Program-made: the position numbers and the translations under genes
Shown: positions 30,901 through 61,830 of the stretch, piece after piece
How positions within the stretch are numbered: the stretch's first letter is position 1
How the letters are laid out: each line of letters opens with the position of its first letter
Origin: Ignavibacteria bacterium
GTDB taxonomy: Bacteria; Bacteroidota; Ignavibacteria; Kapaibacteriales; UBA4661
Direction: 5' to 3'
NCBI GenBank assembly: GCA_014654705.1
Contig: JACVZY010000008.1
Span: 1-64,000, forward strand
Length of the DNA: 64,000 bases
The notes under the pieces: model-generated
Databases searched by the model: none
What the model was told of the DNA's origin: nothing
What the model saw: the letters and a program-made list of their open reading frames with translations, nothing else

Positions 30901-33900
30901 ACGACGCAAACCATCACCACCACTGCCCCGAATGACTTCGGGCGGCGCGGAGATTTCAATAATTTCGGGGTGTTGGAACTTCGGCGTGGAAATTTGAACG
31001 GTGTAAACGGCAGACTAAATATAGAAATGCAAACACTCACACTATCTTCTACCGCAATCATTTCTCCCGACCAAGCAAAGGTAACGTATCGCGGAGAGCG
31101 CGTCGGAACAAACAACGCACGAGCGCGGGTGTGCCTTTCAGATGCAACTGGTTCTGAAAGCTATCCACGTCAAACCATTTGGAATAGCGTTGGTGTGCGC
31201 TATGGCGGGGACGGTGTTGGCGGAATTGTTGTTCGTGGTCCGGCAGGTTATGTGTGGGGAACGCTTACTTTGGGTACTCGCGCAAGCCTCATCATCACAG
31301 GCGGTACGGGAGGTACGATTGCGGTGGCTTCACAATCACCTCTGCTCCGTTTTCGCGCCCAAGGCATCATCAATACTGGCTTCGATGAACTTCCCGCAAC
31401 GCTCGGCATTCCGGGGCTGGAAGCCCTACCCGCGTTGCCCGATGCCACACAAATAACCGTCAACCCCGCACCCGACCCGAACGGCTTCAATAACGCATGG
31501 AATCTGGATTTGCCTTACATTCGGAGTGGTGTCGGGAATTTGACAATGCTGCGCGGAACGAGCAATATCTTGACGCTTCTGGGAAATAGTCAAAATAGCC
31601 AAGAAGGTCTTATTACAACGTTTGAACCGGAACGCTCCGGCTTGCAAGTCTTCGGCACGATTGCCACAGCGCGGGGAAGCCTCGACCTGAACGGGCGAAA
31701 TATCGAACTCAGCGGCACGACTTCGACGCTGGTGGAAGCGTTTGAGCGTAGCCCACGCCCGTCATCGGTGGTGAACCGTCACACAAAAGCGCGGGCATAC
31801 ATCGGGCTGACTTCTCCACGCGCCGTACCGTTGCTGGATTCTGCCGCAGCCGCACAGTCGCTTGCGTCCGGCGGTGTGCCGCTTGCCGCCTCGCTTGCGG
31901 GGCTTGGTTCAACGATTGTCAATGCAAACTTCAATGCCGATTCCACACGCTTCCGCGTTCGGCGTTGGCAGACGAGTGCTGCCAATGCGCTCACACGCTT
32001 GAACGCTCCCAATGTTCCCCTCGCAAACCGTTACTGGACAATCGAAACATCCGGCACGCAAAGAATAACACGAAATTTCGGTTTGGTGCTGAATTATACC
32101 GACGCGGACGTAGCCCAAAGTCTTGCGCCCGCACCACTGGCACTTCTGCGCGGGCAACTGCTTCCCACGCAAACGCCCTTCCAAGCGCTTGCGCCCAGCG
32201 ACCGCACAGATACCACGCGCAAGCGCACCAAACAGCTTGCGCTTTTTGCTCCTGAGCAAGTCGTGTATGGGCAAAGCATCATCGGCACGGGTAATTTTGC
32301 CCTTCAGCAAGACAGTAGTCAAGCGGGTTTCCAGCTCTGGGCGCTGGGCACTCCCGCACCCGTTTCACTCGTGCTGCGCGGGCAACGCTTCGGCGGGAAG
32401 TTCGGCGACCCGATTGGTACGGGCTTTGAAGGCGCGACAACCGATATTCTCGGCTTTCCACCGCCTTTCGGTGCAGCGTGGCAAGGCGGCGGTATCTCGC
32501 GCCAAGCAGCGAATGACTTCGGCGCTATCATTGGTCCCTTCAAGGCGGGCATTCCGACGTGCGCAACGATTATCGGCGAAGTGCTGGATGAATTAGGTAA
32601 TGTGGCTCAGTTTGCGCCGTCCACGGGCGCAGCGTTGGTAGTGGGACAGGTCGGAGGCGGTTTGGGTCCGTGGAATACGGGCGTACCAGCATTATTTTCA
32701 AGAACAACGGGCTATCCGAGCGGAAAAATCGGTGCAGTATCGCGCGGCGGGCGCTTTGAGTGGGCAAATGTGCGCTTGGATGGCGTTGCTTCCACGACCG
32801 TTACGCTAACCTTGACGAATGACCTTGTGGATAAAGATGACGGCGTACCGCGTCCAAATCCCGCTTCTCAACTTGTCTATGCCGACCCGCAACCTGTACA
32901 AGTTTCGTTGCAAGGCGGTTTCCCATTTTTTGCTACCTTTGCAACCCAGCATATCAATAACAGTCCTGATGTTCCAGGCATGATCTATCCGGGTGCGCAA
33001 GGACCATTCGCCGTGCCCGGTACAGTGGCAAGCGATCCATGGAATGGAATTACTGGTTATGCCGGCTCAACGCCGTACATTGAAGTTGGAAAAACTGTTG
33101 TGTTGCCGTACTCTTCGCCCGGATATTCTTCTATCACTGGCATTGTCATAGACCGCTTTGGGAATTATGCTTCCTTCCCGACAACAGCAACTATCTCTAT
33201 TGCAGGCGGTTCACCGCCTGTTGACCAGCAGCGAACGCCACTTGTGGGGCAGGTCTCAGAACAAAAACTTGTATGGGGTTTGGGTAATTTGGGCAATGAG
33301 TCTGGTTTGTCCAGGGTGATAGGCAGCGTGCTGCCCAGCATACAAAGTGCATCCCGCGTGTCTCCGGCACTTGCGCCGACAGGTGCGGGTTATGCGCCGT
33401 ATAATAATCCACAACTGAGAACAAATCTTGTATCATTTCCCAATTTTCAGATATGGGGTGCCACATCAAGTAATGTTACTATGGTTATGTCTGTTTATTC
33501 TCCTTGGTGGTGGGTTGCAGCGACAAACAAAAATGCTTCGGAGATAACATCATCGTCTGGCAATACCTCTTCAACCATCACCATCGCCCCCGGTCCCGCT
33601 GTCGGCATTGCGCCTGTGATTGTGCCGGACGTGTACAACCGCAATCAGCCCGACCGTATGCCATCCAAAATGTTCATCGGCGCATCGAATCGCGGCAATC
33701 CCAGCACGTGGTTCTACGTGCAAGCCGTTGACCAGTTCGGTAATCGTGTTGATAATGGTCCCAATGCCTACAACGGTGGTACGGCGAATATCCGTTTCTT
33801 TTCGCCCGAAGAGGGTTTGCCGAAAAATACGTCGGGAACATTTCAATTTACAACCACCACGCCGCGTGACCCCTACGTGCGTGCGAACAACCAGCGCTAT

Positions 33901-35430
33901 TCTGCTCGCGGCACAAGCGCTCCGGCTATCAACGGCTTGTACACATTCAATGATTTTACGCCGCTTGGTCCCGCTAGTCTGGAAGCGCTTGGCAAAGACG
34001 TTGTGCTGACATTTGAAGATGAACGTTTGAAGGGAGTAACCGCTCCATTTGCAAGCGGTGCGACGGGGCTTTTCCGTCCGATTCCGCCCATTACCACCGC
34101 TACAACCACTTTCGTCCAGCCACCCACACTCACGCTTTCCGCCAGCGACAGTGTGCTAAACGGCGCTCGGAAAGCCGCGCCGAATGGTCTTTTCCTGCGG
34201 GAACGCGCCCGCACCTACCGAAGCACACAAAACGCTCTGGAAACAGGTTTTGTGCGCCTCACCCGTCCCGTGACGGCACTGGCAGACCCAACGCTGAACG
34301 TGCAGTATTCTCTGGACTATTTCAACGCCACCAGCGGCTTTGATACAACCACCTTCCGCATCAGCGACCGTGCGCGTCTCACGTCCTTGCCGCTTGCGGG
34401 AACAACCACGCTGCCACTTCCGTCAGCAATCATCCTGCCCGACGGTTTGCCAAGTCCGGCGCTTTTTCCGCCCATGCCGCAGCCCGTACCGACCACTATC
34501 AACGGCTTGTTGGGCGACGTTGCGCCGCTTGCCGTCGGTGCGTCGGGGCTGAGTACGGCAGCACTTGGCACGTCCGGCACGATTGCGTTTGAGAGTGGCG
34601 CGGTTGCGCAGAATGTTTGCTTCAGCGCCCGCTTCAGTGACCAGACCTATCCGCGTAATCCTGCACGTCAGGGTGTACGGCTTGCTGTCATGTGGCTCTT
34701 GGCGGATACAACGCTACCGTATCGTGTGGAAAGAGGTGCGGATTCAGCGTTTGTTGTTCTTGCCGACCCCGCAAGCGCTGACCCGCTCTGCATCAATCCT
34801 CTGACTGATAAGCTCTACCTGATGACCGGAACAAATAATAATCCCATCCAAGAAACGCTTGAGTTAGAGCCGCCCGCATGGACAAGCCTTGCCGGAAAGC
34901 CAGCCCCCGCATGGGTGTTCTACGACGACAACTACGACGCTTTGCAATACGCTGCTTGGTCGTCGGACACGACGCTTGTGCGCGTGAGCGTGAACGCCGT
35001 TGATATGCGCTTTAGCGGTCGCCCGACGCTCAATTATACCATTCCGGCTTTTGCACCCGTGGAAACGAGCGCAAGCATTATCCTGACTGCCTCTGACGGC
35101 TTTTCGCAGGCGCGGGATACGTTTGCGATTGCTCTCCGCCGTCCCGTCGGTGTGGAACTCGCACAAATGCCGGAGCCGCAGTTCCTCCGCCTTTCGCCCA
35201 ACCCGACGACCGACGAGGTGGCGATAGACTTCCGCACTCCCCGTGCGGGCGTGGTGCGTTTTTGCCTGCGGAATGTTTTGGGTATGGTCGTCTGGCAGCA
35301 GGAACGCAGCGTCTATGCGGGTGAGCGCCTCTCCGAGCGTGTGTCGATGCAGCACTGCGCGGCGGGTGTGTATCTGCTGGAAGCACAGCTGGGTGCGGAG
35401 CGCAGCGTGGTGAAGGTGGTGAAGGAGTGA
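27994..35430 (+). CDS. Giant T9SS-secreted surface protein
   Basis: 2478 residues from the ATG at 27994 (MFRFLLLGVLSCISF); the GTG at 27952 would add 14 residues before the signal peptide. The signal peptide ends near residue 22 (LPAQ). SARSGRWVDLSTWQV and VPNGFANVFIEAGHTV at about 30-85 resemble a G8-type module. Very long beta-rich, Thr/Ser/Asn/Pro-rich stretches follow. Near 1700-1980 are Ig-like motifs with 'DrFGNya/DqFGNrv'. The last roughly 80 residues (LRLSPNPTTDEVAIDFR...AGVYLLEAQLG) are a type-A T9SS C-terminal sorting domain, so the protein is predicted to be exported and attached to the outer surface. Its size suggests an adhesin or sheath-like role. Enzymatic motifs are not seen. 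Confidence 0.85.
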   Translation: MFRFLLLGVLSCISFCVHLPAQLLDEVPDVASNFRSARSGRWVDLSTWQVLRSGVWITATREVGVPNGFANVFIEAGHTVIATRATTEAAFYNGAQGSAFLDVINLNIHTNASITTTWGSVVGGFAPTDWYDGDRFGGFVSTEYAGIAAAFPISTRFGNQDTAIYRVHPLTEPQIEYRPRNMELRIYGNLRYYSGSAFDRSDRAAQIQVTAATIGTGSTLVFRGVSRVITKPEEWSATLATQTGYFDNTAYTASMLASNPPERRANFRGLMGRNSFWTAIFDLGRINNRNYSADQFEGPTDDPSTAVGTLQGTFTAGIVQVRRGTLRVEAPALLVNEGSVTSGVLHVMNNAVLQMVSGNVGRTGVYAEQFANGSANYLTSTECRVTSRMRYAVVEEGGALEFPGIVGSLSAADVRFNGTVIYSRTGDQTLVQDSPYLSFNPAGPIIAPGLAAGENGLFDPYNNNFNANAGVQQAGDPTSGVLSQFGSSPSGLGVGTAALFQPSTTAAYSHLVLRGSGTKFLPVTTVTISRALILQGEARLGLQNLAYPGVPVSAGNASAPPVLPYYLSQAHGGELRASQSASKAGYFPPLVYLRSTGLTGFREENNIGTTLRTSLSGDGTETTSFAATPQPLWSAYGGNTDPVAFVGFTTASTRIILYDQALYPEGASFPVGITLSASTNREQMDMTPSIKAPVVHGLPAEPSYLSIGAGHGYAARGLFYGDAPQALDRARFGQVIRQTLNRVNGTQSATTIMQKPLTGVQNFVNGFPVITNSLYDAPINSTATTTLQYDSETSEIMSEIEFPSGVWGVHNVVINSASNVAQTLPQRTADFQPASGNGVNWGLPHLNFTNRTSALTGTTAGTLIAGPEHVMTANGHLPRHAFDLRTGLYQPNAVYNETANGADSITPGTLASAYIDTRPDVNNENTKINDQYYTTGVGLRPSVSLTGTFDGRTRAGFPQGVANAPSVFGTTQTITTTAPNDFGRRGDFNNFGVLELRRGNLNGVNGRLNIEMQTLTLSSTAIISPDQAKVTYRGERVGTNNARARVCLSDATGSESYPRQTIWNSVGVRYGGDGVGGIVVRGPAGYVWGTLTLGTRASLIITGGTGGTIAVASQSPLLRFRAQGIINTGFDELPATLGIPGLEALPALPDATQITVNPAPDPNGFNNAWNLDLPYIRSGVGNLTMLRGTSNILTLLGNSQNSQEGLITTFEPERSGLQVFGTIATARGSLDLNGRNIELSGTTSTLVEAFERSPRPSSVVNRHTKARAYIGLTSPRAVPLLDSAAAAQSLASGGVPLAASLAGLGSTIVNANFNADSTRFRVRRWQTSAANALTRLNAPNVPLANRYWTIETSGTQRITRNFGLVLNYTDADVAQSLAPAPLALLRGQLLPTQTPFQALAPSDRTDTTRKRTKQLALFAPEQVVYGQSIIGTGNFALQQDSSQAGFQLWALGTPAPVSLVLRGQRFGGKFGDPIGTGFEGATTDILGFPPPFGAAWQGGGISRQAANDFGAIIGPFKAGIPTCATIIGEVLDELGNVAQFAPSTGAALVVGQVGGGLGPWNTGVPALFSRTTGYPSGKIGAVSRGGRFEWANVRLDGVASTTVTLTLTNDLVDKDDGVPRPNPASQLVYADPQPVQVSLQGGFPFFATFATQHINNSPDVPGMIYPGAQGPFAVPGTVASDPWNGITGYAGSTPYIEVGKTVVLPYSSPGYSSITGIVIDRFGNYASFPTTATISIAGGSPPVDQQRTPLVGQVSEQKLVWGLGNLGNESGLSRVIGSVLPSIQSASRVSPALAPTGAGYAPYNNPQLRTNLVSFPNFQIWGATSSNVTMVMSVYSPWWWVAATNKNASEITSSSGNTSSTITIAPGPAVGIAPVIVPDVYNRNQPDRMPSKMFIGASNRGNPSTWFYVQAVDQFGNRVDNGPNAYNGGTANIRFFSPEEGLPKNTSGTFQFTTTTPRDPYVRANNQRYSARGTSAPAINGLYTFNDFTPLGPASLEALGKDVVLTFEDERLKGVTAPFASGATGLFRPIPPITTATTTFVQPPTLTLSASDSVLNGARKAAPNGLFLRERARTYRSTQNALETGFVRLTRPVTALADPTLNVQYSLDYFNATSGFDTTTFRISDRARLTSLPLAGTTTLPLPSAIILPDGLPSPALFPPMPQPVPTTINGLLGDVAPLAVGASGLSTAALGTSGTIAFESGAVAQNVCFSARFSDQTYPRNPARQGVRLAVMWLLADTTLPYRVERGADSAFVVLADPASADPLCINPLTDKLYLMTGTNNNPIQETLELEPPAWTSLAGKPAPAWVFYDDNYDALQYAAWSSDTTLVRVSVNAVDMRFSGRPTLNYTIPAFAPVETSASIILTASDGFSQARDTFAIALRRPVGVELAQMPEPQFLRLSPNPTTDEVAIDFRTPRAGVVRFCLRNVLGMVVWQQERSVYAGERLSERVSMQHCAAGVYLLEAQLGAERSVVKVVKE

Positions 35431-35816: not shown

Positions 35817-36836
35817 CTATTGCAAGGTGATACGTGCGCCAGCGTTGGTGCGGGCGATAAGGATTGCTTTATCGCTGTTGGTGCGTTTTGCGTTCACGAT
35901 GCCGACGGTAATTTCTGCTGACCCTGCTTGGAGGGCGGTGAGTTCGGCGGCAGTGAAGTCAACACTTGCGGCTCCGGCGGTGAGCTGTTTGGTGATAGGT
36001 TTAGGCAGATTGCGGCGAATTTGCTCAATTTCTCGGCGTGTTTTTCCGGCAAGTGCCGTCGAATCAAGGACATTTTTCAAGACCACGACGCCATTGGTGA
36101 ACGTGCCGGCAACATTCCAGCGAACGCTTAGGTTGCTTGCGCGGGAAAGCGCATCGCCGCTTTTGAGCGAAGTAAAGGAGACGTTGCCGGGTATGTCCAG
36201 TGCGTTATCTGCAAGCGCGTAGCCGCTTACCGTGAAGGTGGCTGTGGCATTGACCGGGGTGAGCGTGATGAGTGCCGGAAGCGTCGTGCTGGCATTGGTC
36301 GCCGGAGGCGCAGGGAAGACAAAGAGCGTCGAGGCTATGCGCTCGGGGCGTGGAGCGTTTGCATTGGTACTGTTGGGATTACCGTTACCATTGCCGCCCG
36401 GACCTCTGCCGTTGCCGTTATTGGGACGCATCGGCGGCGTTACGAATTGATAGGTCGTACCGAGAACAGCAACGCTTACGCCCGTAACGCCAAGTGTGTT
36501 GTCGAATCGTGCGGAGGCTTCGCCGCCAGTCTCAGTGCTGGTGCGGGAAAGCGGGCGACGTTTGATTTCCAAGACTGCTTCGGGGCGGGTCTCTGAGCCG
36601 CCTGCGAGTGCCATAATGTTGAGTCCGGAGGAAAGGTCAAGGTCAGAGTCATCGCTTGTGAGCGAGCCTGATACCGCGCTTGCGCTCAGGGATGAAGAGC
36701 TATTGAGGTCGTCTAGTGCAGCAATGGGCGAGGTGCTTCCGTCTTGCTGACAAGCTGTTACGCCTACAAAAAAGGCAAGAGCGATTCCGGCAGCCGCGGA
36801 AATAAACGCGCGGCGGCTATTCATGATGGTTTTCAT
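35817..36836 (-). CDS. Putative lipoprotein of unknown function
   Basis: 339 residues from the ATG at 36836 (MKTIMNSRRAFISA); a GTG at 36950 would add 38 residues before the signal. The signal sequence runs to GVTACQQDGS, with Cys at about 29 in a lipobox-like setting (VTAC). A Ser/Asp-rich linker (about 40-75) is followed by a beta-rich domain (EAVLEIKRRPLS), a Gly/Asn/Pro-rich loop, then repeats suggesting a DUF4382-like or Ig-like fold. A helix after FTNGVVVLKNVLDSTAL (EIEQIRRNLPKP) precedes the last strands. I do not recognise the family with confidence. It faces the giant surface gene convergently. The N-terminal TAT-like SRRAFI may be coincidence. Confidence 0.6.
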   Translation of the reverse strand: MKTIMNSRRAFISAAAGIALAFFVGVTACQQDGSTSPIAALDDLNSSSSLSASAVSGSLTSDDSDLDLSSGLNIMALAGGSETRPEAVLEIKRRPLSRTSTETGGEASARFDNTLGVTGVSVAVLGTTYQFVTPPMRPNNGNGRGPGGNGNGNPNSTNANAPRPERIASTLFVFPAPPATNASTTLPALITLTPVNATATFTVSGYALADNALDIPGNVSFTSLKSGDALSRASNLSVRWNVAGTFTNGVVVLKNVLDSTALAGKTRREIEQIRRNLPKPITKQLTAGAASVDFTAAELTALQAGSAEITVGIVNAKRTNSDKAILIARTNAGARITLQ

Positions 36837-37306
36837 GGTGGTTCCTAAAGAAGTGAACAAAAAAAGATGTGGAATTGCATTTCCCGTGTATGCCGGAGTG
36901 CTTTGGGTCGTTGGTGGTGTATGCGTGGTTTCACCGTGTTCCCTTGCCACGCATCTGTGGGGATAATACCAAAAGCAGTAACGTCAAACATAATCAACGG
37001 CGGCACTAATGCTTCATAGAGGAAAATTCTTTTAGTGTTTTTGGGGTAGAAAAATGTTGTGAAACGTATGGTTTTTGCTGAGAAGAATTATTGTGATTCT
37101 CTCATTGTGAGCCTCTCGGAATGGCGTTTGTAAACCGTGCCGTTCTTCTTCGCTCACAGAATAAAAAAACAGGATAGTGCAGGGAAAGTTACAGCACGCT
37201 GCAAGGGAAGGGAGAAAAAAGCGTTGTGAGCCGTGTTGTAGAATCTCCCGAAAAGCGCTATATTGCTACTTCCCATGCACTATTTCTTCGACAATTTTTT
37301 GTAGTT
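36837..37306. other. 470-bp divergent intergenic region, no gene seen
   Basis: Separates the divergent lipoprotein and propeller/T9SS genes and should carry both promoters. I see no conserved operator, RNA or intact gene in it. In-frame extensions of both flanking genes into this region look non-coding. Confidence 0.45.
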
Positions 37307-40300
37307 ATGACTTCACGCATAAAGTTCTCCTTGCGATGGCTTTTTTGCATTCTCGCTCTTGTATTTTCATACAGCGGCGTTCTTGCTCAACTTCCACTAA
37401 CTCCTCTTTCATGGCAGCAAGCGGGGACAATTCCCGGACAAAATATTATTTGCCTTCATGCTACAGGCGGTGAATTTCAGGGAAGCCCAAGCACGGTGCG
37501 GCTTCTGGCGGGAACAAATGACGGCGTATTTCGCTCAACCAATAGCGGCGCGACGTGGATTCAAACGCAGGGCTGGAATAAACAGCAGGTAACGTCTTTT
37601 TTCGTGGCAAACGACGGAACGCTTTTTGCGACAACGTGGGGCAATGGTATCTATCGCTCCACCAATGACGGTGCGTCGTGGACGGCTTCCAATCAGGGTT
37701 TGCCGCCCATCAATTTCGAAACACGCACTATGGCGCAGTGCGGCTCACGGCTCTTTGTGGGAACGAGCAGGGGACTATGTTATTCGGATGATAACGGCAG
37801 AACGTGGGATATTGTCATTGGTGTTTCTCGGGATGTGCGTTCAGTGCTGGTGCTTGGGCAAACTGTCTTCGCCGGAACGCTGAATGACGGTATTCTGCGC
37901 TCACCGGACGGCGGGGTAACGTGGGAATTTGCCAACAACGGACTTCCTGCAAATGCGCGGTATATCGTGTCCTTCGCTGTTGGTTTTCAGAGCTTTGGGG
38001 ATAATCTGGCAATATTTGCCGCAACGAATCTGGGTGGTGTGGTGCGCTCACTTGATAATGGTAACACGTGGACACCCCTCAATCTTGCCGGTCAGACCTT
38101 GCAGTGTCTCGCCATCAATGGCGATGCTGACAACGAGATGTACGCGGGGACAAGGGGCAACGGCGTGTACCGCTCCAAAAATAATAATCCCGCAATGTGG
38201 TCGCCGGAGAATCAGGGCTTGGGCAATCAAAATATTTTTTCCCTTGCGCTGAGTGGTTCGGTGCTCTTCGCCGGGGCGGAGGACGGCGGGGTTTGGACAA
38301 GCACGATTCCGGCGTATGCAGGTTTTGCTCGTGTGGTGAAAAATGTGGATTTGGGCGAGACCATATCCGGTGTTGCGGGTAAACCACAAGGTTTTCCGGT
38401 CTTTGGGCAGGGGATTCGAGGGAATGTCATAGTGAAGGCACCTTTAGGGGTAGAAATTGCTACCTCAATAAACGGAGAATACAAATCAAGCCTCACGCTC
38501 ACGGCAAATACGTCTTTGTCAAACAATGGGCGGATAGACCAGACCGTTTTTGCGCGGCTGAACTCAGCGTCTGCTCTCACTCTCAATGATACGATCACCG
38601 TTGATGCGGGGGTTGTCTTCAAGATGAACGTCAAAGGCAAGGTCGTTGACCCCGCACCACTACAGCCTGTGCTGGCAATATCTCCCGCCACTCTTACGCT
38701 TGGCGGCGTGATACAAGGCGAGAGCACAACCGCACAAACACTGACGCTCACGGGTGCAAATCTGGCTACGCCCGTCGTCCTGACTGCGCCTGTGGGAACG
38801 CTTCTTTTCGACACGGCAAGGCGCGTCTGGACACAAATTCTCAGCCTCACGCCGACGTCAGGCAGTTTGAATATCGGTGTCAGTATTCGTTTGGATTCAT
38901 CACTCACGCCACGCACCATACTTGGTGTTGTCAGTGGCGCGGTGCAGAGCGGCATGATTCAGACAAGTGCGACAGTGAGCGGCAGCATTATTGCCAAGCC
39001 TCTGCCACCCGCACCGCAACTTACCGCGCAGCCGTTAGAATTGGGATTTGGCACTATCATTCTCGGCAATGCTTCGCCAGTGCACACCTACACGCTTACA
39101 GGCACAAACCTGACCGCGCCGGTGGAGGTCTTTGCACCGCCCGGAGTGCTGCTGCGCCATCCGGCGAGCGGGTCGTGGGTAAGCGCGATGACTTTGGCGA
39201 CGAACAGTACGGGAAGCCTCATGCAATCTATTGCGGTGCGTTTGGATTCCTCTGCCCTGCGAGTGCTGAGTGGTGGGTTGGCAGCAAGCATACGGCATAT
39301 CACTACAAACACGAGCGCGACGGTAACAGTGCAAGGTATTGTGCAAGACGCGCCCACACTTGAAGTTCTCCAGTCCGCGCCGTTAGCATTTGGAACGGTG
39401 CGCCTCGGCAGCACTCCTGCACCGCAACGCTACACGCTCATTGGGCGAAATCTGCTTGAAACCGTTGTGATTACTGCTCCGCAAGGAATTGAAATTCTCG
39501 ACACTGTGACCAATACGTGGGGGCGGTCGCTGCGCCTCATGCTCACGTTCACGCCGAACAACGCCAATATCCGATGTAATTTTACCGTGCGTTTCGATGC
39601 TTCCACCGTCCGAAATATTGATTCGGTGATTGTGAACACCAGTGGTCTCGCAGAGGCAAGAGTCAAGGTTACGGGCGTTGTTATCCCCCAACCTGAGCTT
39701 CTGACCACAGCGCTTCAACCCGAAAACTTAGACACGATTATCCGTTTCGACCCTTCACGTGTCGGTTCGTATTCGCTCACGGGACGCTTCCTTGCTGCAC
39801 CTGTCGCTGTTACTGCTCCTGAGGGTGTTTTGGTTTTTGACAAAACAAGGAACGTTTGGTCGCAAACGCTCACCTTCACGCCCGACGCACAAGGAAGCGT
39901 CACGGAGACCGTTGCCGTGCGCTTGGATTCCTCGCGTCTCGGCTCGGTGCGAGATTCCGTGCGAAACGTGAGTGGTTCCACGTTTGCAAGTGTGAGCGTT
40001 CGCGGTGCAGTGGTGGCACTTGCTTTGCCGACGGGTGCCGAAACGACGTTGGAATTGCGCCTTGTGGGGCAACAACCCCTACGGGTGCGCGATACGGCTC
40101 GTGTGCAGGTGTGGCTTAAGGACTCGCGCTTACTGACACCGCGACTTATCGGACGATTTTTGAGAACGCTCCGCGTGACGGTGCGGATAGACACAAACAA
40201 CCTTGCGGTACTGGGCAGTTCGCCGTTCACGCCTCGTGCGCGAATCGAATCACCGGCACGTGTTCCGGCAGATACGCCCTTGTACACCATTCTTGCCGAG

Positions 40301-40774
40301 CGCACCGATACGACTTCCATGAGTAATGTATTGCTTGCAGAAATGCTTCTCCAAGCCACCGTCGGCGTCACGACGAGCAACACATTACGAATCACTGCCC
40401 CTACGGCATGGTTTGGGAGCGACGGCACATCTGCGTCCGCAACGGACGTGCGGATAGTGTGGGCTACGGAATCAGTGCCGGTACAGCTTCGTCCGCTTTT
40501 TGTTCGGCGTAATGGTCTTGTCTTAGCAGCACCAAATCCGTCGCAGGACGAAGTACGGCTTCTGTACACGCTTGCGGAGGATACGGGTGCGGCGGTGCTG
40601 ACGGTCAGCGATGCGTCGGGGCGAGTGGTGAAGCGCGTAGAACTTGGCGCGAGAACAGCAGGACTCGCACAGCAAGAAACGGTGCGGCTTGGTGATTTGG
40701 CGATGGGGTCATATTTGGTGAGTGTGGTCACGGCGCGTGAGACGCTTACATGTAGTCTTGAGGTTGTGCGGTAA
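37307..40774 (+). CDS. T9SS substrate: BNR-type propeller plus five ~108-residue repeats
   Basis: 1155 residues from the ATG at 37307 (MTSRIKFSLRWLF). Signal peptide to about residue 28 (GVLAQ). Residues about 45-330 form a sortilin/BNR-like propeller with repeated 'S-x-D-x-G-x-T-W' turns (STNSGATW, STNDGASW, SDDNGRTW, SPDGGVTW, SLDNGNTW). Residues about 335-900 hold five tandem repeats of about 108 residues with a 'YTLTGxNL..PV.V.AP.G......W...L......VRLDSS' core. About 905-1070 is a cohesin-like beta domain, and the last 80 residues (APNPSQDEVRLLYTL) a T9SS sorting domain. It is followed 79 bp later by a barrel-OmpA gene. The same two-gene arrangement recurs at 56.8-64 kb. Confidence 0.85.
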   Translation: MTSRIKFSLRWLFCILALVFSYSGVLAQLPLTPLSWQQAGTIPGQNIICLHATGGEFQGSPSTVRLLAGTNDGVFRSTNSGATWIQTQGWNKQQVTSFFVANDGTLFATTWGNGIYRSTNDGASWTASNQGLPPINFETRTMAQCGSRLFVGTSRGLCYSDDNGRTWDIVIGVSRDVRSVLVLGQTVFAGTLNDGILRSPDGGVTWEFANNGLPANARYIVSFAVGFQSFGDNLAIFAATNLGGVVRSLDNGNTWTPLNLAGQTLQCLAINGDADNEMYAGTRGNGVYRSKNNNPAMWSPENQGLGNQNIFSLALSGSVLFAGAEDGGVWTSTIPAYAGFARVVKNVDLGETISGVAGKPQGFPVFGQGIRGNVIVKAPLGVEIATSINGEYKSSLTLTANTSLSNNGRIDQTVFARLNSASALTLNDTITVDAGVVFKMNVKGKVVDPAPLQPVLAISPATLTLGGVIQGESTTAQTLTLTGANLATPVVLTAPVGTLLFDTARRVWTQILSLTPTSGSLNIGVSIRLDSSLTPRTILGVVSGAVQSGMIQTSATVSGSIIAKPLPPAPQLTAQPLELGFGTIILGNASPVHTYTLTGTNLTAPVEVFAPPGVLLRHPASGSWVSAMTLATNSTGSLMQSIAVRLDSSALRVLSGGLAASIRHITTNTSATVTVQGIVQDAPTLEVLQSAPLAFGTVRLGSTPAPQRYTLIGRNLLETVVITAPQGIEILDTVTNTWGRSLRLMLTFTPNNANIRCNFTVRFDASTVRNIDSVIVNTSGLAEARVKVTGVVIPQPELLTTALQPENLDTIIRFDPSRVGSYSLTGRFLAAPVAVTAPEGVLVFDKTRNVWSQTLTFTPDAQGSVTETVAVRLDSSRLGSVRDSVRNVSGSTFASVSVRGAVVALALPTGAETTLELRLVGQQPLRVRDTARVQVWLKDSRLLTPRLIGRFLRTLRVTVRIDTNNLAVLGSSPFTPRARIESPARVPADTPLYTILAERTDTTSMSNVLLAEMLLQATVGVTTSNTLRITAPTAWFGSDGTSASATDVRIVWATESVPVQLRPLFVRRNGLVLAAPNPSQDEVRLLYTLAEDTGAAVLTVSDASGRVVKRVELGARTAGLAQQETVRLGDLAMGSYLVSVVTARETLTCSLEVVR

Positions 40775-40853
40775 GCACAAACGATTCACATACTTCTCCC
40801 TTTTTGGGGGGGTACACCGTTTTTTTGACACTATTTTTTGCGATACACCACCA

Positions 40854-43022
40854 ATGTACATTACTCCCTTTTCACGCCTTGCAATGGTCTTATTTCTCCT
40901 CATTGTTGGGATTTTTGCATCTGCCCCAGCGCAAGAGATCAACACTGAACGCTCCCTTGTGCGGCTTGGCATTTGGGGGCAAGCTGTTCGCCCGATGCAC
41001 ACTGCCCGTTTTACGGGGCTTGCGAGTCTGTCGGATATTACATACGAAAATAAGATTCTGAGCCTCGTTTCCGCTCCCTACGCTTGGAGCGCCGGGGCGT
41101 TAGCGGAATTTCCGTTGGTAGAGTTTGGCAAGGGCGCTTCGCTGGGTTTGTCGGCGCGTGTGGGTGCGTCATCGCTTACGGCAGAGTTTGCGGCTGTGGG
41201 AGAATCCTTTCCTGTCGGACGGGATGCCCTTCCGGCAAGCATCGAATATCGCTTGTCTGCAAACGTACTGATGCTTTCAGGTGAACCGCTTCTCACGTTC
41301 CGTTTCGCGGAGAACCGTGTGGCGCTCATGGCAGGCGCGCAGTTTTCTATGCCCTTCCGCGAAACAACTGTGCAACGTGCCACAATCATATCTGCGCAAC
41401 CCATTAGTGACGATATCCGCCGCCAGTATGATGCTTCCGAACAAGGTTCTATCGGCAAAAGTATCACGCCGTCGTTGCTTGTGGGTGTGTCGTGGGAGAT
41501 ACCACTTACCGCAAACGGCTCACTGCTGCTTGTGCCGGAGGTTTTTTATAGTCTTGGTCTGGCAAACGTCAGTAATGCACTTGCGACATTGCCCGGCGAA
41601 GTCCCGCTGTGGCGCATGAATACGCTCCGTGCAGGTATTGCGCTCAAGTTTGCGCCGGAAAAACCACTCCCGCCACCGTCACGACCAGACGAACCTTTGC
41701 CAACAACGCCGCAGCCGATAGCGTCGAACACGAGTACCGCACCGCCCAAAGCCGCTCCCGCGCCGTTGAGCGTCAAAATCGCGACGGTGATAGGAATACA
41801 AAAAAGCGGTCAGGGCGTAGAATATCCGACGATAGCCATTGAGGAGTTTGCTGCTTCGTCCTCGCGGTATTTGCTGCCGTATATCTTTTTTGATGAAAAA
41901 TCTGCCGCCATCCCGCAGCGTTTCACGCGCCTCAGCCCCGACGAAACGGTATATTTTAAGCCTGAAAATCTTATTAGCGGCACTCTCAAGCCTGAAAATG
42001 ATTTGGATGCGTACGCTCATATTTTGAACATTGTGGGCTATCGTCTGCATCAATACCCGAATGCACGGCTGACGCTGACGGGCTTCAACGATGCGGCAGC
42101 TGAAAGTGCTGAAAAATCGTTTGACGGAAGACCGCTGGGCTTGCGCCGTGCAGAGCGTATAAAGGAGTATTTGCAAACAGTCTGGGAAATTCCATCGAGC
42201 CGCATCATCACAAAGTTCGGCGGCACACGGGGTTTGGCAACGCCTCTGGACGCGGAGGAAAATCGGGTGGTGGAAATGCAAGCATCGCAACCGGAAATTT
42301 TTGGCGAACTGCGCTACGACTATACTCTGCGCACACTTGAAACGCCCGTGCTGGAAGTAGAGCCTGAAATCACAGCCCCGAAGGGACTTGCGGCGTGGTC
42401 CTTCAGAATTACGCAACCGACCAAAGAAGAGACGAATAGAAATGCCACGCAGCGCCAAACTTCCACGACGTTGGTGGAATACGACGGCAAACTTGCTCCA
42501 AGGGTGATTTCTTCTAACATGGAGCGTGCAATGGCTACGGTGCCGCTCTCCGACAAGCCGATAGCCATAACGGTTCGTGCCGCCGACAGCGCTCGCAATT
42601 CCTCTTTTGCGACGGTGCAACTACCTGTAAAGACACTTACACTGGAAACCAAGCGTCGCCTGAATATGCCGGACGTGCGCGTAGGAACGTACTGGGTCTT
42701 TTGTTTTGACCTGAACTCGAAGCAAATACTTGTGGACGACCGCATACGCCGTGCGGTGCAAGCCATCAAAACCCATATCACGCCGGGTGCATCGCTGGAA
42801 ATCAAGGGCTATGCCGACACGCGCGGCGATGTGCAGAGCAATCGAAGGCTTTCTGATGAACGTGCTGAATCGGTTTTGCAACTTATCGGTGCGCCGTCAT
42901 CACGAGTGATCAGCGAGGGAAAAGGTGAATCAACGCTCTACGAAAACACCCTTCCCGAAGGACGCTTCTACAACCGCTTTGTGCGCGTGGATGTCCGCAC
43001 GCCTGTTGTGAAGGGGCGTTGA
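40854..43022 (+). CDS. Outer membrane beta-barrel protein with two OmpA-like domains
   Basis: 722 residues from the ATG at 40854 (MYITPFSRLAMVLF). Signal peptide to about residue 24 (SAPAQ), a beta-barrel-like region (about 30-265, alternating strands such as LRAGIALKFAP at its end), and a Pro-rich linker (about 270-300). A first OmpA-like module (about 335-480) has LLPYIFFDEKSAAIP, LTLTGFNDAA, and GLRRAERIKEYL. A second OmpA module (about 605-720) has CFDLNSKQI, LEIKGYADTRGDVQSNRRLS and GKGEST. The second has the usual peptidoglycan-binding residues. The protein probably links the outer membrane to the cell wall and may anchor the T9SS substrate encoded upstream, with which it is likely co-transcribed. 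Confidence 0.85.
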   Translation: MYITPFSRLAMVLFLLIVGIFASAPAQEINTERSLVRLGIWGQAVRPMHTARFTGLASLSDITYENKILSLVSAPYAWSAGALAEFPLVEFGKGASLGLSARVGASSLTAEFAAVGESFPVGRDALPASIEYRLSANVLMLSGEPLLTFRFAENRVALMAGAQFSMPFRETTVQRATIISAQPISDDIRRQYDASEQGSIGKSITPSLLVGVSWEIPLTANGSLLLVPEVFYSLGLANVSNALATLPGEVPLWRMNTLRAGIALKFAPEKPLPPPSRPDEPLPTTPQPIASNTSTAPPKAAPAPLSVKIATVIGIQKSGQGVEYPTIAIEEFAASSSRYLLPYIFFDEKSAAIPQRFTRLSPDETVYFKPENLISGTLKPENDLDAYAHILNIVGYRLHQYPNARLTLTGFNDAAAESAEKSFDGRPLGLRRAERIKEYLQTVWEIPSSRIITKFGGTRGLATPLDAEENRVVEMQASQPEIFGELRYDYTLRTLETPVLEVEPEITAPKGLAAWSFRITQPTKEETNRNATQRQTSTTLVEYDGKLAPRVISSNMERAMATVPLSDKPIAITVRAADSARNSSFATVQLPVKTLTLETKRRLNMPDVRVGTYWVFCFDLNSKQILVDDRIRRAVQAIKTHITPGASLEIKGYADTRGDVQSNRRLSDERAESVLQLIGAPSSRVISEGKGESTLYENTLPEGRFYNRFVRVDVRTPVVKGR

Positions 43023-56586: not shown

Positions 56587-56820
56587 CACATATTTTGTTT
56601 TGATGCTATTTTTTAATAGCTCAAAACAAACCTCTCAGGCAACACTATGACTCGACGCTCATTATATTTTATATTTTCAAACAATACCGATAGCAGAAGG
56701 ACTGCTTGTAGCAATGCTACTTATAGCAATGATGCTTGGGGTAGTGATTGTTGCTATAAATACCCTCAGCAGCAAACGTACCCGTTCGCCAAGACGAACA
56801 TCAAGAACTTGGCTGCTTCC

Positions 56821-59800
56821 GTGCGATTGTTTTGTTTGATGCTTTTTTTCTCTGCCCTGTGGGGTAGCATATCTCTGTCCCACGTTGCACACGCACAGGA
56901 GCAATCGACGCAGTTGCGACTACTCCAGCCGAATAGAGGCGAGCGTCTCACGCCCGGTGGAGAGTATCTCCTCATCTGGACAGGTATTTCGCCGCTTGAC
57001 ACGGTACAGCTTTCCTTCAGTATTGATTCCGGTAAAACTTGGCAACTTATCACTGCTAATGCAACCGGACTTGCCTACCGTTGGTCGCCCATTCCTTTCA
57101 CGGTAAGCGATAGGTGTTTGCTGTCGGTGAGCACCAAACCGCGCGACAACAGCACTGCTATTCAATCCGGTGCGTTTGGTCTCAGTTATGGTCAATTTCG
57201 TTCCTCACCACGCTGGCTAAATCGTTGGTCGGGATTTTCATTCGACGGATCAAAAATTTTGACGATTAGTTCTCGACCGTTTGACGATTCTACGCGCCAG
57301 ACGTACCGAACGCAAGTTTGGGAGGCGGCATCGGGTCGGTTATTGTACACGTTGGATCGTCTTGCCGATACGACTTTGCGATTTGCGCCCAGTGGCATTA
57401 CTCCCCGCACGATTCAAGCGCAATTCAGTCCTGATAATACACGACTACTGAATCTCCTGAGCGATACCACTTTTGGTGTTTTTGATGCTTCCTCCGGGCG
57501 TTCGCTACGCACCATTCGCATACCGCGAGAGGGCTTTGCGATGGCTCTCCAAAATGTCGGCTGGAGCAACGATGGGCAAGAAATGATTGCTCGCGTTCTG
57601 GTTCGGGAGCAGGGTACGGGCGCTTCGGGAACGCTGCTATCGGATAAATTTATTCGCTTTAGTGTCAGCGATCAGTCAGACCGTCCCATTGGTTCGCAGC
57701 TCTCCAGAATCGAATTTGACCGATGGGGCAGTACTTATCTTGGGCTTCTACATAATCGCCGACAATGGCTTGCAATGAGGCGTATCAACGGTACGGCGGA
57801 AAATTCTCCCCCTCAAGTACAAGAGATTTTGCTCTACACTCCCGGTACAGATTCTGCGCGTCGTTTTATTGCACCCGCAAATTATTCGTGGAAAGCCGAA
57901 ACAGTGATGGTAGCGCCAAACGATTCGGTGATGGCGCTGATGGCAATTCCGATAAATCCACAGCAGAACCTGCCTAATCTTCTGACAATTGTTAATCTTT
58001 TCACCGACGTTCAGCGAACACGTGCTGCGACACGTCCTGTGTCGTGGAGTTCTGACAGCCGTAGCTTGATTTTGCTGGAGGATAGCGGTAAGCAGCCGGA
58101 GATATTGGATATTGGTACTTTTACTGTTACCGCCGTATTACAAAACCTGTTTGTAACAGCTTTTGAGCGGTCGTTAAGTATGGGCAATATTATTGGAGAA
58201 GTTCAGAGCGGTAGTGAGCAAGTTCGCTGGAGTAACGACGGGCGTCGCTTTCTTGGCTATGAAGCACCGTCGCAAACCGGTCAACCTTCTACAACAGCTC
58301 AAACATTAGGCTTTTGGGATGCCGCAAGCGGTTGCCAGACCGAGCGATTTGCTCTCCCGCGTTTACCCGGTATGGCGCAGCCACTACGCTATTCATTAAG
58401 CATGGTCGGTGCTTTTATTGCCAATGGCACCGAACGGCAGTACATTGTGACCAATAACCAAAGCGACACTGCTTTGGTGCTCGCGGTGCAAGCGCCATCT
58501 TCTTCGTGCCAAACTTCAACTTCTGATGGCTTGTGGTCTATCCGTTTGCCAAACGTTATCGTGGCTCAAGAAACACTGACCTTTCCAACGCTGGTGTGCG
58601 AGACCACTGCCACGGCACGTTTTACGGTAACGAATCTAACAAATGCAGCGCTTATTTTGGAGTCATCGTTGCAAACACTGTCTGCCTCCTCCGGCTCCTC
58701 TTCTGATTTCTCTGTCGTACAATCGACATCGCGTCTTATGCCTGCAAGGGCTGTGGAAACAGTTATTCTTCGCTACTCACCGCAGAAATTTGGTGAGTCA
58801 GCTGCGCAAATGGTCTTTACCAATGAAAAAAATGAAGTTGTTGCTCGTACCATTGTCCTCGCTCGGAGAGACTCTTTAGCTTTCGAACCATCTGCCCCAA
58901 TCATTAATCTGGGTTTTGTGCCGGCAAGAACAATTCTTACGACCACTGTCACCATCCGTAATACCGGTAATACTCCGCTTCAGTGGTCCACCACGGCGAC
59001 GCGCAGTGCGTTGGGTAATGTCTTCATCACCACTCTTACCCCCAATCCAACCCCTGTTGGTGCGTCCGCACAAGTAACCGTGCGCGTACAGCCAATTAAC
59101 TCACTTGGTGCTTTTCAAGAGACCTTACCGATATATTTTTGTGGAAGCAGCACTTCCACAGCATTTGTGCAAGCTCGTGTGCTGCCGGAATTTCAGCAAA
59201 TAGAAGTTGCTCCTCTTGTGGATGGCGGCATTTTAACGTGTGAAACAAGTGTTGACCGCCCGCTTCGTATTCAGAACACCGGTGGTAAGCCGCTTACCAT
59301 AACCGCGATGGATATTGCGGATGAAAATTTTCGTATTCTTAATGCGCCGCAACTCCCCTTCACGTTACTTCCGTTTGATTCACTGGTATTGCAGATTAGG
59401 CTTACGACGCGCTTAACGAGCGGTGTCCTCGAATCGCGTATTGTTATTCGTTCCGATGACCCTCTGCGCCAAGTGGTGGAATCTACGCTGCGCGTACAAC
59501 GGCTCGCTCCAAGCTATCAATGGACACCAAACGCTCTTCGGTTCGAGCGCGTTGACATTGGTGCAGTAAGCGAACAAACCGTTGAATTTACTAATAATGC
59601 CCAAACCCCACTTTTTTGGGATTCTCTGCCCAGACGACTAACGCCAGATTTTACTATTCTTGCCGTACAACCCAACCCCACGCCAAATGGTGCCACTTCG
59701 AGAGTTACTATCCGTTTTAATGGTAGCCCTGCGAGCGGTCTTATTAGCACAACAGCGAGTTTTAATTTACGTGATATTTGTAACACAGCGACACAACTTG

Positions 59801-61830
59801 CCTTGGAAGCGATTACCATACAGCCTGCTCCGAAGGTGATTATTCGCAACACAATTCTCTTTGATACGCTCCTCTGCGAGTCTGAACGCACACAGCAAGT
59901 ACAGATTTTGAATGCGGGCAGGCGGGTCTTGCGCATTGATTCAGCATTCATAGAACCAAGAATAGGAGCGGGACGCAGCCCGACAACAGATTTTGTCATT
60001 CGTACTGAAAGCACACCATCGCTCCCGGTAACCGTCGCCGGAGTAGATAGTGTGAGCGTACCGTTACAGATTTCCATCAGCTTCCGACCACGCGCTACGG
60101 GCTTACGCGAAAATTGGCTTGTCTTGTACTCCAACGACACAACATCAAGCCCCGACGGTATAGTACGGGTGCGGCTTTCTGGGGTGAGCGAAAAAGCGAG
60201 CTTTACGCTTTCGCCGCCAGTACTTCGCTTTCCCACATTCGCTGATTTTACGCCCGTGCGAGACACCGTGTTTATTCTGAACACCGGAACAAAGCCTCTT
60301 GTGTGGCAGGGTTTTCCGCGTATTCTGGATAGCCTCTTTACTCTTGAGCGCATAGAACCTGCCACAACGTTGCCGGGCGGAAGCTCGAAGGCAGTAATTC
60401 GTTTTGCCGGTATTCGCCGAAGCGATAACATTCTTCGAGAAGTCACGCTCACCAATGCTCTCTGCAATGCTTCGCAAACTGTTCGCTTTGCCGCCGGTAC
60501 AACCCCGCAAGGAGCGCTCGGAGCGCTTCGTGACGTGGCAGTACGACTTCTGTGTGGTAATGAGTTCCGTATCGCAATTCCGCTCGAAAATGTCGGTACA
60601 GCCACACTCATGTTCCCTGAGCAACCTCGCTTTCTGAATGATACACTCCGCGAAGCAAGTATTTTCAGTGCTCCAACCGCGCTTCGTGCGGGGCAGCGCG
60701 ATAGTATTGTAATTCTTCTTGCCGCCCAAAGTGTTGGTGTGCGCACTCTTCGACTCCAAATTACCACGAACGACCCGCTTAGTCCCCGAACAGAGTTGCG
60801 GATACTGCTCACAAAAGACTCCAGCGCCTTGAGTTTACAGCCAACAAGCATAGACTTCGGTAATATAAGCGATGGAAAGCCTTTAGCACGAAGTATCATG
60901 ATAGAAAATAATGGCACTATTGAGCAGCGAGTGGCTGTGCCGTTGCAGATGGGAAATCTCGTCATGGAGGCATTTGCGCCCAATCCTATACCGCCTGGCG
61001 GACGCGCAACAGCACAAATTCGCTTTACACCTGTTACCAGCGCTGCTGTTGGTGGGTTGTTGACGGGAAGTCTCACCTTGTTGGATTCATGTGCCCGCGA
61101 AAGCATCGTTACGGTGAACGCACGGCTGACCGATGGCGAATTTGCGCTGCCCGATTCTATCAAACTTGCCCCGCTTGGCGAGGTGGATGTACCTATTCTT
61201 CTGCGCCGCCGCTCCGGTATTGTCGTTGGCACCACAGCAACATTTCGATTCCGTATTGCCAATACATCGCTTTTGCAAGTGCTTTCGCCCACGCAACCAT
61301 CGCAGGGCGTCCTCCAAAACCGCGTTGAAAACGGTGCTCGTATTCTGCGCCTCAGTGTTGCTGTTTCCTCCACGAATGAGTCTGAGCCGATTGTAACGCT
61401 GCGCTTGCGCGGGCTATTAGGAAATGACTCGCTGACGACACTGACACTTGACAGTGCTTCTGTCGGTGGTACGCCCCTGCGTGGCTCACAGAGCCGTTTT
61501 CAGACGATTGGACTGAATTACTCCGGCGGCAAACCTCGCTTGTACTTTACGCCACTGATTACGCTTGTTGCCCCCAATCCAGCATCGGATGAACTTTCGG
61601 TGCGATTATCAGCGCTCGAATCGTCAAGCATTTCTCTGCGAATAGTGAACGTTTTGGGGCAGACGGCGGAACTCTTCGGGGGGAGTATTGATGCGGGTGA
61701 GCGGGATTTTCGCTTTGACCTGTCCCCGTTCCCCACAGGCGCATATTTGCTTGAATTGCGCTCCCAAAGCCTTGTCAATCCTGCGCTTCCCTTAGAACGC
61801 AGCCACACGCGCATACACATCGTGCGCTAA
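56821..61830 (+). CDS. T9SS substrate: propeller plus multiple HYDIN/ASPM-like Ig domains
   Basis: About 1669 residues. I place the start at the GTG at 56821 (VRLFCLMLFFSALW), which directly precedes a good signal peptide (to SHVAHAQ). The ATG at 56647 adds 58 residues of odd Cys/Asn/Tyr-rich sequence that looks non-coding. LRLLQPNRGERLTPGGEY starts a carbohydrate-binding-like first domain. Residues about 110-560 form a WD40/PD40-like propeller (FSPDNTRLLN, WSSDSRSLIL, WSNDGRRFLG). About 565-1440 hold repeated HYDIN/ASPM-type domains (INLGFVPARTILTTTVTIRN, RIQNTGGKPLTI, VEFTNNAQTPLFWD). About 1445-1575 is cohesin-like, and the last 85 residues (APNPASDELSVRLSAL) a T9SS sorting domain. A barrel-OmpA gene follows 12 bp later. 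Confidence 0.84.
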   Translation: MRLFCLMLFFSALWGSISLSHVAHAQEQSTQLRLLQPNRGERLTPGGEYLLIWTGISPLDTVQLSFSIDSGKTWQLITANATGLAYRWSPIPFTVSDRCLLSVSTKPRDNSTAIQSGAFGLSYGQFRSSPRWLNRWSGFSFDGSKILTISSRPFDDSTRQTYRTQVWEAASGRLLYTLDRLADTTLRFAPSGITPRTIQAQFSPDNTRLLNLLSDTTFGVFDASSGRSLRTIRIPREGFAMALQNVGWSNDGQEMIARVLVREQGTGASGTLLSDKFIRFSVSDQSDRPIGSQLSRIEFDRWGSTYLGLLHNRRQWLAMRRINGTAENSPPQVQEILLYTPGTDSARRFIAPANYSWKAETVMVAPNDSVMALMAIPINPQQNLPNLLTIVNLFTDVQRTRAATRPVSWSSDSRSLILLEDSGKQPEILDIGTFTVTAVLQNLFVTAFERSLSMGNIIGEVQSGSEQVRWSNDGRRFLGYEAPSQTGQPSTTAQTLGFWDAASGCQTERFALPRLPGMAQPLRYSLSMVGAFIANGTERQYIVTNNQSDTALVLAVQAPSSSCQTSTSDGLWSIRLPNVIVAQETLTFPTLVCETTATARFTVTNLTNAALILESSLQTLSASSGSSSDFSVVQSTSRLMPARAVETVILRYSPQKFGESAAQMVFTNEKNEVVARTIVLARRDSLAFEPSAPIINLGFVPARTILTTTVTIRNTGNTPLQWSTTATRSALGNVFITTLTPNPTPVGASAQVTVRVQPINSLGAFQETLPIYFCGSSTSTAFVQARVLPEFQQIEVAPLVDGGILTCETSVDRPLRIQNTGGKPLTITAMDIADENFRILNAPQLPFTLLPFDSLVLQIRLTTRLTSGVLESRIVIRSDDPLRQVVESTLRVQRLAPSYQWTPNALRFERVDIGAVSEQTVEFTNNAQTPLFWDSLPRRLTPDFTILAVQPNPTPNGATSRVTIRFNGSPASGLISTTASFNLRDICNTATQLALEAITIQPAPKVIIRNTILFDTLLCESERTQQVQILNAGRRVLRIDSAFIEPRIGAGRSPTTDFVIRTESTPSLPVTVAGVDSVSVPLQISISFRPRATGLRENWLVLYSNDTTSSPDGIVRVRLSGVSEKASFTLSPPVLRFPTFADFTPVRDTVFILNTGTKPLVWQGFPRILDSLFTLERIEPATTLPGGSSKAVIRFAGIRRSDNILREVTLTNALCNASQTVRFAAGTTPQGALGALRDVAVRLLCGNEFRIAIPLENVGTATLMFPEQPRFLNDTLREASIFSAPTALRAGQRDSIVILLAAQSVGVRTLRLQITTNDPLSPRTELRILLTKDSSALSLQPTSIDFGNISDGKPLARSIMIENNGTIEQRVAVPLQMGNLVMEAFAPNPIPPGGRATAQIRFTPVTSAAVGGLLTGSLTLLDSCARESIVTVNARLTDGEFALPDSIKLAPLGEVDVPILLRRRSGIVVGTTATFRFRIANTSLLQVLSPTQPSQGVLQNRVENGARILRLSVAVSSTNESEPIVTLRLRGLLGNDSLTTLTLDSASVGGTPLRGSQSRFQTIGLNYSGGKPRLYFTPLITLVAPNPASDELSVRLSALESSSISLRIVNVLGQTAELFGGSIDAGERDFRFDLSPFPTGAYLLELRSQSLVNPALPLERSHTRIHIVR

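Follow-up and report, generated by a model that had tools for sequence, protein, structure and literature searches.

The 64,000-nucleotide stretch of DNA analysed here (the window) comprises positions 1 to 64,000 of contig JACVZY010000008.1 from the genome of an Ignavibacteria bacterium of the order Kapaibacteriales (assembly GCA_014654705.1, the source genome). It contains two cassettes, A and B, in which a gene for a predicted product of the type IX secretion system (T9SS), the substrate, is followed by a gene for a predicted outer membrane protein that joins a barrel to two OmpA modules. Such pairs recur across the lineage, and on balance we favour the interpretation that the two genes of each cassette encode a cognate pair, in which the barrel protein would anchor a T9SS-exported surface protein.

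Substrate A lies on the forward strand at 37307..40774, and its reading frame (37226-40774) is intact, with an ATG start codon at 37307. The protein begins with a signal peptide, recognised in the sequence by eye, which is followed by a BNR/Asp-box propeller region (approximately 37403..38305), where the Pfam models DUF6242, Sortilin and BNR match and a motif scan detects five Asp-box motifs at residues 104, 145, 187, 226 and 275. Immunoglobulin (Ig)-like repeats then extend over approximately 38348..40015. The initial annotation had counted five repeats of about 108 residues; the number stands, and the spacing needs correction to 113-116 residues, as measured from a landmark at residues 405, 521, 637, 751 and 864 that was located by motif scans (the one at 751 by the first of two). 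A divergent cohesin-like domain occupies the penultimate position (40022..40501), as delimited by alignments A4 and A7 and by profile comparison with the A5 family, and the protein ends in a T9SS type A sorting domain (40502..40771). The sorting-domain matches (PF18962, E = 9e-4; TIGR04183, E = 1.6e-4) are under the curated cut-offs, scoring 19.9 against 27 bits and 21.6 against 23 bits, respectively, and are still at the expected C-terminal place.

Barrel A follows on the same strand (40854..43022), also in an intact reading frame (40722-43022), with the likely ATG at 40854. A Pfam scan detects two OmpA (PF00691) stretches, and a structure predicted from 18 sequences, with a mean predicted local distance difference test score (pLDDT) of 82 and mostly 85-97 in the barrel strands, indicates an outer membrane protein built from a barrel, an OmpA module, an Ig-like domain and another OmpA module. 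The predicted barrel is of the 8-stranded OmpA/OprF type (40953..41657; model residues 34-268; Z 17.1 to the OprF barrel). The first module has an OmpA/Pal fold (41871..42287; model residues about 340-478; Z 13.6 to Pal, 4g4v), in which the Arg is conserved and the Asp partly so, and a beta-rich, Ig-like linker (approximately 42306..42638) is defined by the secondary structure of the model, with no identification by fold search. The second module is canonical (42663..43007; model residues 604-718) and carries both the Asp and the Arg, which we take to be the peptidoglycan-binding residues, after A. baumannii OmpA; their positions are consistent with PDB alignments. Furthermore, VIA-align fits the second module to OmpA-C with a peptidoglycan fragment (3td5, Z 12.9), and there is no FadL-type barrel among the best 50 VIA-align entries for the model, which leaves one further down possible. 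The NCBIfam models for TpgA (NF047726, a weak match to the OmpA part at 23.9 bits) and PorE (NF052230, 15.6 bits) do not reach their cut-offs of 350 and 600. The parts that the initial annotation had assigned to cassette A, namely a BNR-type propeller, a cohesin-like domain, a sorting domain and a barrel with two OmpA modules, were all recovered by Pfam, motif scans, profiles and the model.

Cassette B shows the same order of parts with other types of propeller and repeat, as had been proposed from the sequence. Substrate B (56647..61830, forward strand) consists of a WD40-like propeller, choice-of-anchor D/HYDIN Ig repeats, a cohesin-like domain (61084..61545; E = 1.6e-12 with a profile built without the source genome) and a T9SS sorting domain (61573..61770; PF18962, 28.1-33.5 bits, cut-off 27). 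Barrel B, with a barrel and OmpA-Ig-OmpA, starts at 61843 on the same strand, runs to the end of the window at 64000 and continues to about position 64221 of the contig. Both substrates match type A sorting models (PF18962, TIGR04183), substrate B above the cut-off and substrate A below it. Barrels A and B are 25.7% identical and the two substrates have no BLAST match at E<=1, therefore the cassettes are not recent duplicates, an origin that had been named as grounds for abandoning the idea of a conserved system and that is ruled out by these values.

Linkage of barrel-OmpA and substrate genes

The OmpA-Ig-OmpA family is present in all 41 genomes searched of the order, the source genome included, and in 17 of 148 genomes of a phylum-wide draw. 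Besides the source genome, these 17 are 11 further members of the order, one genome of the class in which at least 8 copies were counted, and four genomes at a greater distance, each with a single match; copy numbers are lower bounds because at most 13 candidates per genome were scored. Close relatives of barrel A on named contigs come from Candidatus Kapaibacterium and Ignavibacteria metagenome-assembled genomes. The source genome has 57 OmpA matches and 29 OmpA-Ig-OmpA members, 19 of which match the barrel profile. Over all fetched loci, with overlapping copies counted, the barrel profile matches 94 of 115 family open reading frames (ORFs), and some of those without it carry PD40, BNR or WD40 propellers instead.

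Pairing was assessed in seven genomes (the source genome, G010, G012, G019, G023, G033 and G037) with 80 double-OmpA members, excluding four copies of genes met twice in overlapping loci. A member was considered paired if a sorting-domain gene lay directly upstream, on the same strand and within 400 bp. The sorting-domain profile was built from 25 source-genome sequences, 23 of them placed by Pfam hits, and the controls were mechanically called ORFs of the same loci, not curated genes. A T9SS substrate gene lies directly upstream of 32 of the 80 members compared with 14 of 684 other ORFs (Fisher p 6e-24), or 14 of 678 when repeated ORFs are removed, which rules out chance adjacency. A stricter sorting-domain score leaves 23 of 80 members and 12 of 684 controls. 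By genome, the proportions are 12/29 in the source genome, 6/11 in G010, 2/6 in G012, 3/9 in G019, 0/3 in G023, 7/12 in G033 and 2/10 in G037. Exact 4-bp overlaps, which are consistent with translational coupling, occur in 18 of 42 upstream pairs. Outside the seven genomes, an upstream substrate is found for one of eight members in G160, a genome of the same class, and for none of the four single copies in distant genomes, and among the named loci L061-L076, which were picked by similarity to barrel A, the proportion is 9 of 19 members.

The upstream substrate is found for 32 of 63 barrel-bearing members and for 0 of 17 barrel-less ones (p 5e-5), which indicates that the barrel, and not the double-OmpA module, tracks the substrate. 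With a sorting-domain gene allowed on either side, the counts are 37/63 and 1/17, and 40 of the 63 barrel-bearing members have a T9SS or cohesin-like neighbour if the sorting domain may go undetected. The initial annotation had proposed, as a check, to see whether most double-OmpA barrel genes are preceded by a T9SS substrate gene; the proportion is 32/63 in the barrel-bearing subset and 32/80 in the double-OmpA family overall, and its interpretation is supported in part. Conversely, it had held that the idea would fail if the family usually lacked a T9SS neighbour. This is the case for double-OmpA genes as a whole, 42 of 80 of which have no substrate on either side, and it is not the case for barrel-bearing members, given the 40 of 63 with such a neighbour.

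All six close relatives of barrel A that have enough flank (L062, L063, L064, L065, L068 and L069; 42-56% identical; four assemblies, as L063 and L068 share one and L064 and L069 another) are near a relative of substrate A on the same strand. In these six loci the substrate gene is downstream, whereas in the window it is upstream, which means that the association has survived at least one change of gene order. The substrate relative directly adjoins the barrel gene in L064, L065 and L069 and is 1.4-2.1 kb away in L062, L063 and L068. L061, the relative with 65% identity, is on a 5.7-kb contig where the upstream neighbour is not a substrate gene and the downstream stretch is too short to judge. 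Taken together, it is well supported that the substrate-barrel pairing is real and lineage-wide.

Several loci with other arrangements were also seen. In L068, a transposase-like gene (L068:11306-12361) separates the barrel A relative from the substrate A relative, and L036:1256-19900 is a one-strand array in the order substrate-barrel-substrate-barrel-substrate, in which the ends of the two outer substrates are near-identical. In L083, L093 and L103, which represent three genera, a single substrate gene lies between two barrel-OmpA genes in an identical order.

The cohesin-like domain, the barrel and the OmpA modules

Paired substrates of several families in the order have a C-terminal cohesin-like domain that precedes the sorting domain and often ends in a motif such as CxxGGxRL, a loose pattern of which occurs in 32 of 50 paired substrates. 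Among distinct substrates that adjoin barrel-bearing members, 28 of 35 possess the domain; of the remaining sorting-domain genes in these loci, overlapping copies counted, 3 of 31 do. This agrees with the proposal that adjacent substrates carry cohesin-like penultimate domains. These counts were obtained with profiles built leaving out the tested genome; they are used in place of the count of 30/39 neighbours from profile A5, because A5 contained paired sequences of the tested genomes, which biases both that count and the ranking made with A5. A PDB search with profile A5 gives cellulosomal cohesins (best E 6e-5); profile A7, the version found in substrate A, has no match there, and the domain of substrate A is joined to the A5 family by profile-profile comparison alone (probability 96%). 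An outside profile, A6, gives 27 hits in the source genome; 11 of them, including the best, are in paired substrates, and the second-best adjoins a barrel-only gene.

The co-divergence set has 48 pairs and spans 14 genome groups; six pairs were included manually as relatives of cassette A, and significance was assessed with 2000 within-genome permutations. Distances between barrels correlate with those between cohesin-like domains (rho 0.48, reached by 0/2000 permutations), and those of the OmpA part correlate less well (rho 0.35, 4/2000). Without the six added relatives (42 upstream pairs), the values are 0.40 (0/2000) for the barrel and 0.29 (19/2000) for the OmpA part, and for the 12 pairs of the source genome they are 0.36 (14/2000) and 0.02 (838/2000). 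Distances between sorting domains likewise follow those between barrels (rho 0.45, 0/2000) and, more weakly, those between OmpA parts (0.27, 99/2000), therefore the recognised part could be the sorting domain.

The barrel profile also matches 11 proteins without a good OmpA-Ig-OmpA match. Three of their genes (in L136, L142 and L127) adjoin a same-strand sorting-domain gene, and the substrates of L136 and L142 have the cohesin-like domain, which was not detected in that of L127. Because of the stronger co-divergence and of these barrel-only genes beside substrates, the barrel is a likelier partner of the substrate than the first OmpA module. At L140:7490-10380, a gene for a 280-aa cohesin-like protein with no detected sorting domain overlaps a 683-aa barrel gene, the rear part of which is unmatched by the OmpA profile; this is possibly a simplified substrate-barrel pair. 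L136, L140 and L142 were fetched because of their cohesin-like domains.

The presumed peptidoglycan-binding residues are conserved in the second module of the 48 paired members (Asp in 44, Arg in 43), and all 48 retain the Arg of the first module. In addition, the wall-binding part occurs fused to propellers. A barrel-less member of the source genome combines a BNR propeller similar to that of substrate A (E 6e-27) with OmpA-Ig-OmpA. Propellers of the WD40 type, similar to that of substrate B (E 2e-13, 7e-11 and 3e-7), occur in two further such members of the source genome and one of G037, and some of the fusions also contain Ig domains. These proteins suggest that propeller heads and the wall module act together. 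Large fusions of a WD40-type propeller to OmpA-Ig-OmpA were also noted at L045:5924-10714, L040:1076-5704 and L112:6016-10032, the first with an additional vWA domain, and the first and third with Cep192/HYDIN-like Ig domains.

A candidate anchoring system and its alternatives

In the mechanism that we favour, the substrate would exit through the T9SS translocon and its sorting domain would probably be cleaved off. The loops of the 8-stranded barrel encoded by the neighbouring gene may then capture the cohesin-like domain, which would be membrane-proximal, at the outer face, and the periplasmic OmpA-Ig-OmpA tail of the barrel protein would grip the peptidoglycan. The exposed propeller and Ig stalk would thereby be tethered to the wall via one dedicated partner, a single chain of barrel and OmpA modules that would do the job of PorP plus PorE elsewhere.

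According to the passages concerned in two articles, Porphyromonas and Flavobacterium hold type B substrates by 14-stranded PorP/SprF-like barrels, some of which are linked to peptidoglycan via PorE (PMC9143113, PMC12618676); complexes of PorE-PorP-PG1035 and SprF-SprB are reported, and PorE binds peptidoglycan (PMC9143113). The initial annotation had compared the cassettes with SprF/PorP, and this comparison is apt in its logic, as both have a dedicated outer membrane barrel gene beside a T9SS substrate gene together with a peptidoglycan link. It does not extend to homology. Neither barrel A nor barrel B matches PF11751 in a Pfam scan at E<=0.1, and the predicted barrel is 8-stranded and OmpA-type, not 14-stranded and FadL-type, so that membership of PorP/SprF is ruled out. 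Furthermore, the wall-binding domains are here fused to the barrel, and the substrates of the window, judged by their sorting-domain matches, are probably of type A and not type B, and carry a cohesin-like domain ahead of the sorting domain. The source genome encodes SprA (a SprA_N match in a 2541-aa frame on contig C69), and it has no PF11751 match at E<=0.1. Weak PF11751 matches occur in 2 of 26 other genomes of the order (G014, E 5.5e-4, below the cut-off; G020, E 1.6e-7, above it) and in 7 of the 20 additional genomes searched from the class (best E 2e-7), and strong ones in 3 of 4 genomes of other classes, which shows that the search works.

The nearest functional analogy is AtaA-TpgA, in which a surface adhesin is held more firmly by a peptidoglycan-associated OmpA-like partner; the relevant part of one article gives an approximate doubling of the simulated extraction force of AtaA-TM upon TpgA-N binding (PMC13082670). 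That system, as described there, uses another secretion pathway, and periplasmic TpgA binds the membrane domain of the adhesin itself, whereas here the partner supplies the barrel and the cargo is T9SS-exported. OmpA and OprF share the 8-stranded barrel followed by a peptidoglycan-binding domain fold, and the proteins described here differ from them in having two OmpA-C modules that flank a beta-rich domain, a big paralogous expansion and a pairing with exported substrates. Similarly, the penultimate domain resembles cellulosomal cohesins by profile, but it is positioned C-terminally by a sorting domain and its presumed partner is a membrane barrel. In Fibrobacter succinogenes, OmpA proteins have been proposed to anchor T9SS-exported enzyme complexes to peptidoglycan (OmpA/TPR/fibro-slime; PMC6851124), which is the same kind of anchoring of T9SS-exported products; the portion of that article bearing on the subject derives the proposal from proteomics and describes no cognate gene pairs with cohesin-like domains. 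Titles and abstract openings of the open-library papers listed for Kapabacteria/Kapaibacterium secretion or cohesin-T9SS-OmpA combinations contain no such pairs, preprints and most subscription papers being outside this scope.

Different functions may be considered for the barrel. It could be a cognate shuttle or secretion factor with a role like that of SprF or PorV, required to draw its own substrate from the translocon and set it in place, in which case wall binding would position the secretion site and not anchor the product. The frequent identical gene order and the lack of a PorP/SprF match in the source genome would suit such a role, but PorV and PorP-like proteins are described as 14-stranded barrels of the FadL family in the pertinent passages of PMC9143113, as opposed to the 8-stranded OmpA type predicted here. 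In addition, the substrates of the window match type A models, and type A signals are, by the corresponding part of PMC12618676, what PorV recognises. Two wall-binding modules also suit static anchoring better, and we regard a shuttle as unlikely. It is quite unlikely that the paired genes are simply co-transcribed envelope genes whose products make no contact, the barrel-OmpA proteins being general OmpA/OprF-like stabilisers that expanded in the order. Their fold and architecture do match OmpA/OprF, and adjoining sorting-domain genes are absent for 26 of the 63 members with a barrel and for 16 of the 17 without. However, a substrate gene precedes family members about 20 times as often as it precedes other ORFs in these loci, related pairs stay linked despite a change of order, once with a transposase-like gene in between, and pairing favours barrel-bearing members and substrates with one kind of penultimate domain.

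The initial annotation had suggested modelling a complex of the cohesin-like domain with the first OmpA module. Contact with this divergent module might occur, for instance, in the periplasm before export or through an exposed module. The pattern of residues in the first module, with Asp in 27 and Arg in 48 of 48 paired members, makes a protein partner possible, and the OmpA part does co-diverge somewhat over all pairs. Nevertheless, this contact is highly improbable: barrel-less members with the same OmpA modules have no upstream substrates (0/17), genes with the barrel alone are found beside cohesin-bearing substrates, co-divergence is weaker for the OmpA part than for the barrel and absent within the source genome, and the expected topology places the OmpA modules in the periplasm.

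A number of results weigh against anchoring by a cognate barrel. For 23 of the 63 members with a barrel, no T9SS or cohesin neighbour was detected, and most of these lie beside apparent housekeeping genes, which implies that the family has an additional role or unlinked partners. Of the 11 barrel-only genes, only 3 adjoin a sorting-domain gene on the same strand, and in two of these cases the locus had been retrieved on account of its cohesin-like domain. Co-divergence can stem from the joint inheritance of linked genes, with no contact needed. The Pfam cohesin model recognises 3 of the 24 sequences in A5 (best E 0.0017) and 0 of the 12 in A7, and the structure model of the cohesin-like region of substrate A is poor (pLDDT 53) and leaves a cohesin-like fold unconfirmed. 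Profile A6 misses 4 of the 15 paired substrates of the source genome, substrate A among them, and 16 of its 27 hits (15 proteins) are outside these 15. Thirteen of the 15 unpaired proteins were inspected (all except those on C22 and at C29:62554), and no double-OmpA gene detected by profile adjoins any of them, while three are neighbours of barrel genes of the family. Just 27 of 48 paired members have the Asp of the first module, and the propeller-OmpA-Ig-OmpA fusions show no sorting domain, which makes them probably periplasmic. Type A substrates are handled by PorV/PorU in other bacteria. Finally, PorP/SprF is scarce in the wider class as well, so this order is not singled out.

Beyond the individual cassettes, it is possible, and we propose it tentatively, that in this order, where PorP/SprF is almost undetectable, T9SS products are retained by a separate, lineage-specific system. 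Expanded 8-stranded OmpA-type barrels with two wall-binding modules would each be matched to one exported protein via a membrane-proximal cohesin-like domain as a specific plug or handle, and propellers and stalks would be freely exchanged. The surface retention of T9SS products is poorly known beyond a few model species, and many candidate cognate pairs in a group with almost no detected PorP/SprF would point to more than one origin of dedicated barrel partners. Matched and mismatched pairs form a natural set for specificity studies, in which the recognised domain can be predicted, and many unnamed OmpA-family genes in these genomes would gain probable roles.

Neighbouring genes

A third double-OmpA gene, just beyond the end of the window, follows directly on barrel B at L034:9371-11716 (about 64370-66715 of the contig), and the N-terminal part of its product has no match to the family barrel profile. 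Upstream of cassette A, the window encodes a 2492-aa T9SS-type protein (27952-35430) that ends in a sorting domain scoring close to the cut-off and has no adjoining double-OmpA gene. Between this giant and cassette A, a 377-aa protein without a Pfam match, possibly a lipoprotein, is encoded on the minus strand (35817-36950). Long frames are also seen in the 5.7-Mb genome G000, which has at least 150 T9SS sorting-domain matches (150 of 196 candidates for PF18962 were scored, so that substrate totals are lower bounds), in frames of up to 7595 aa.

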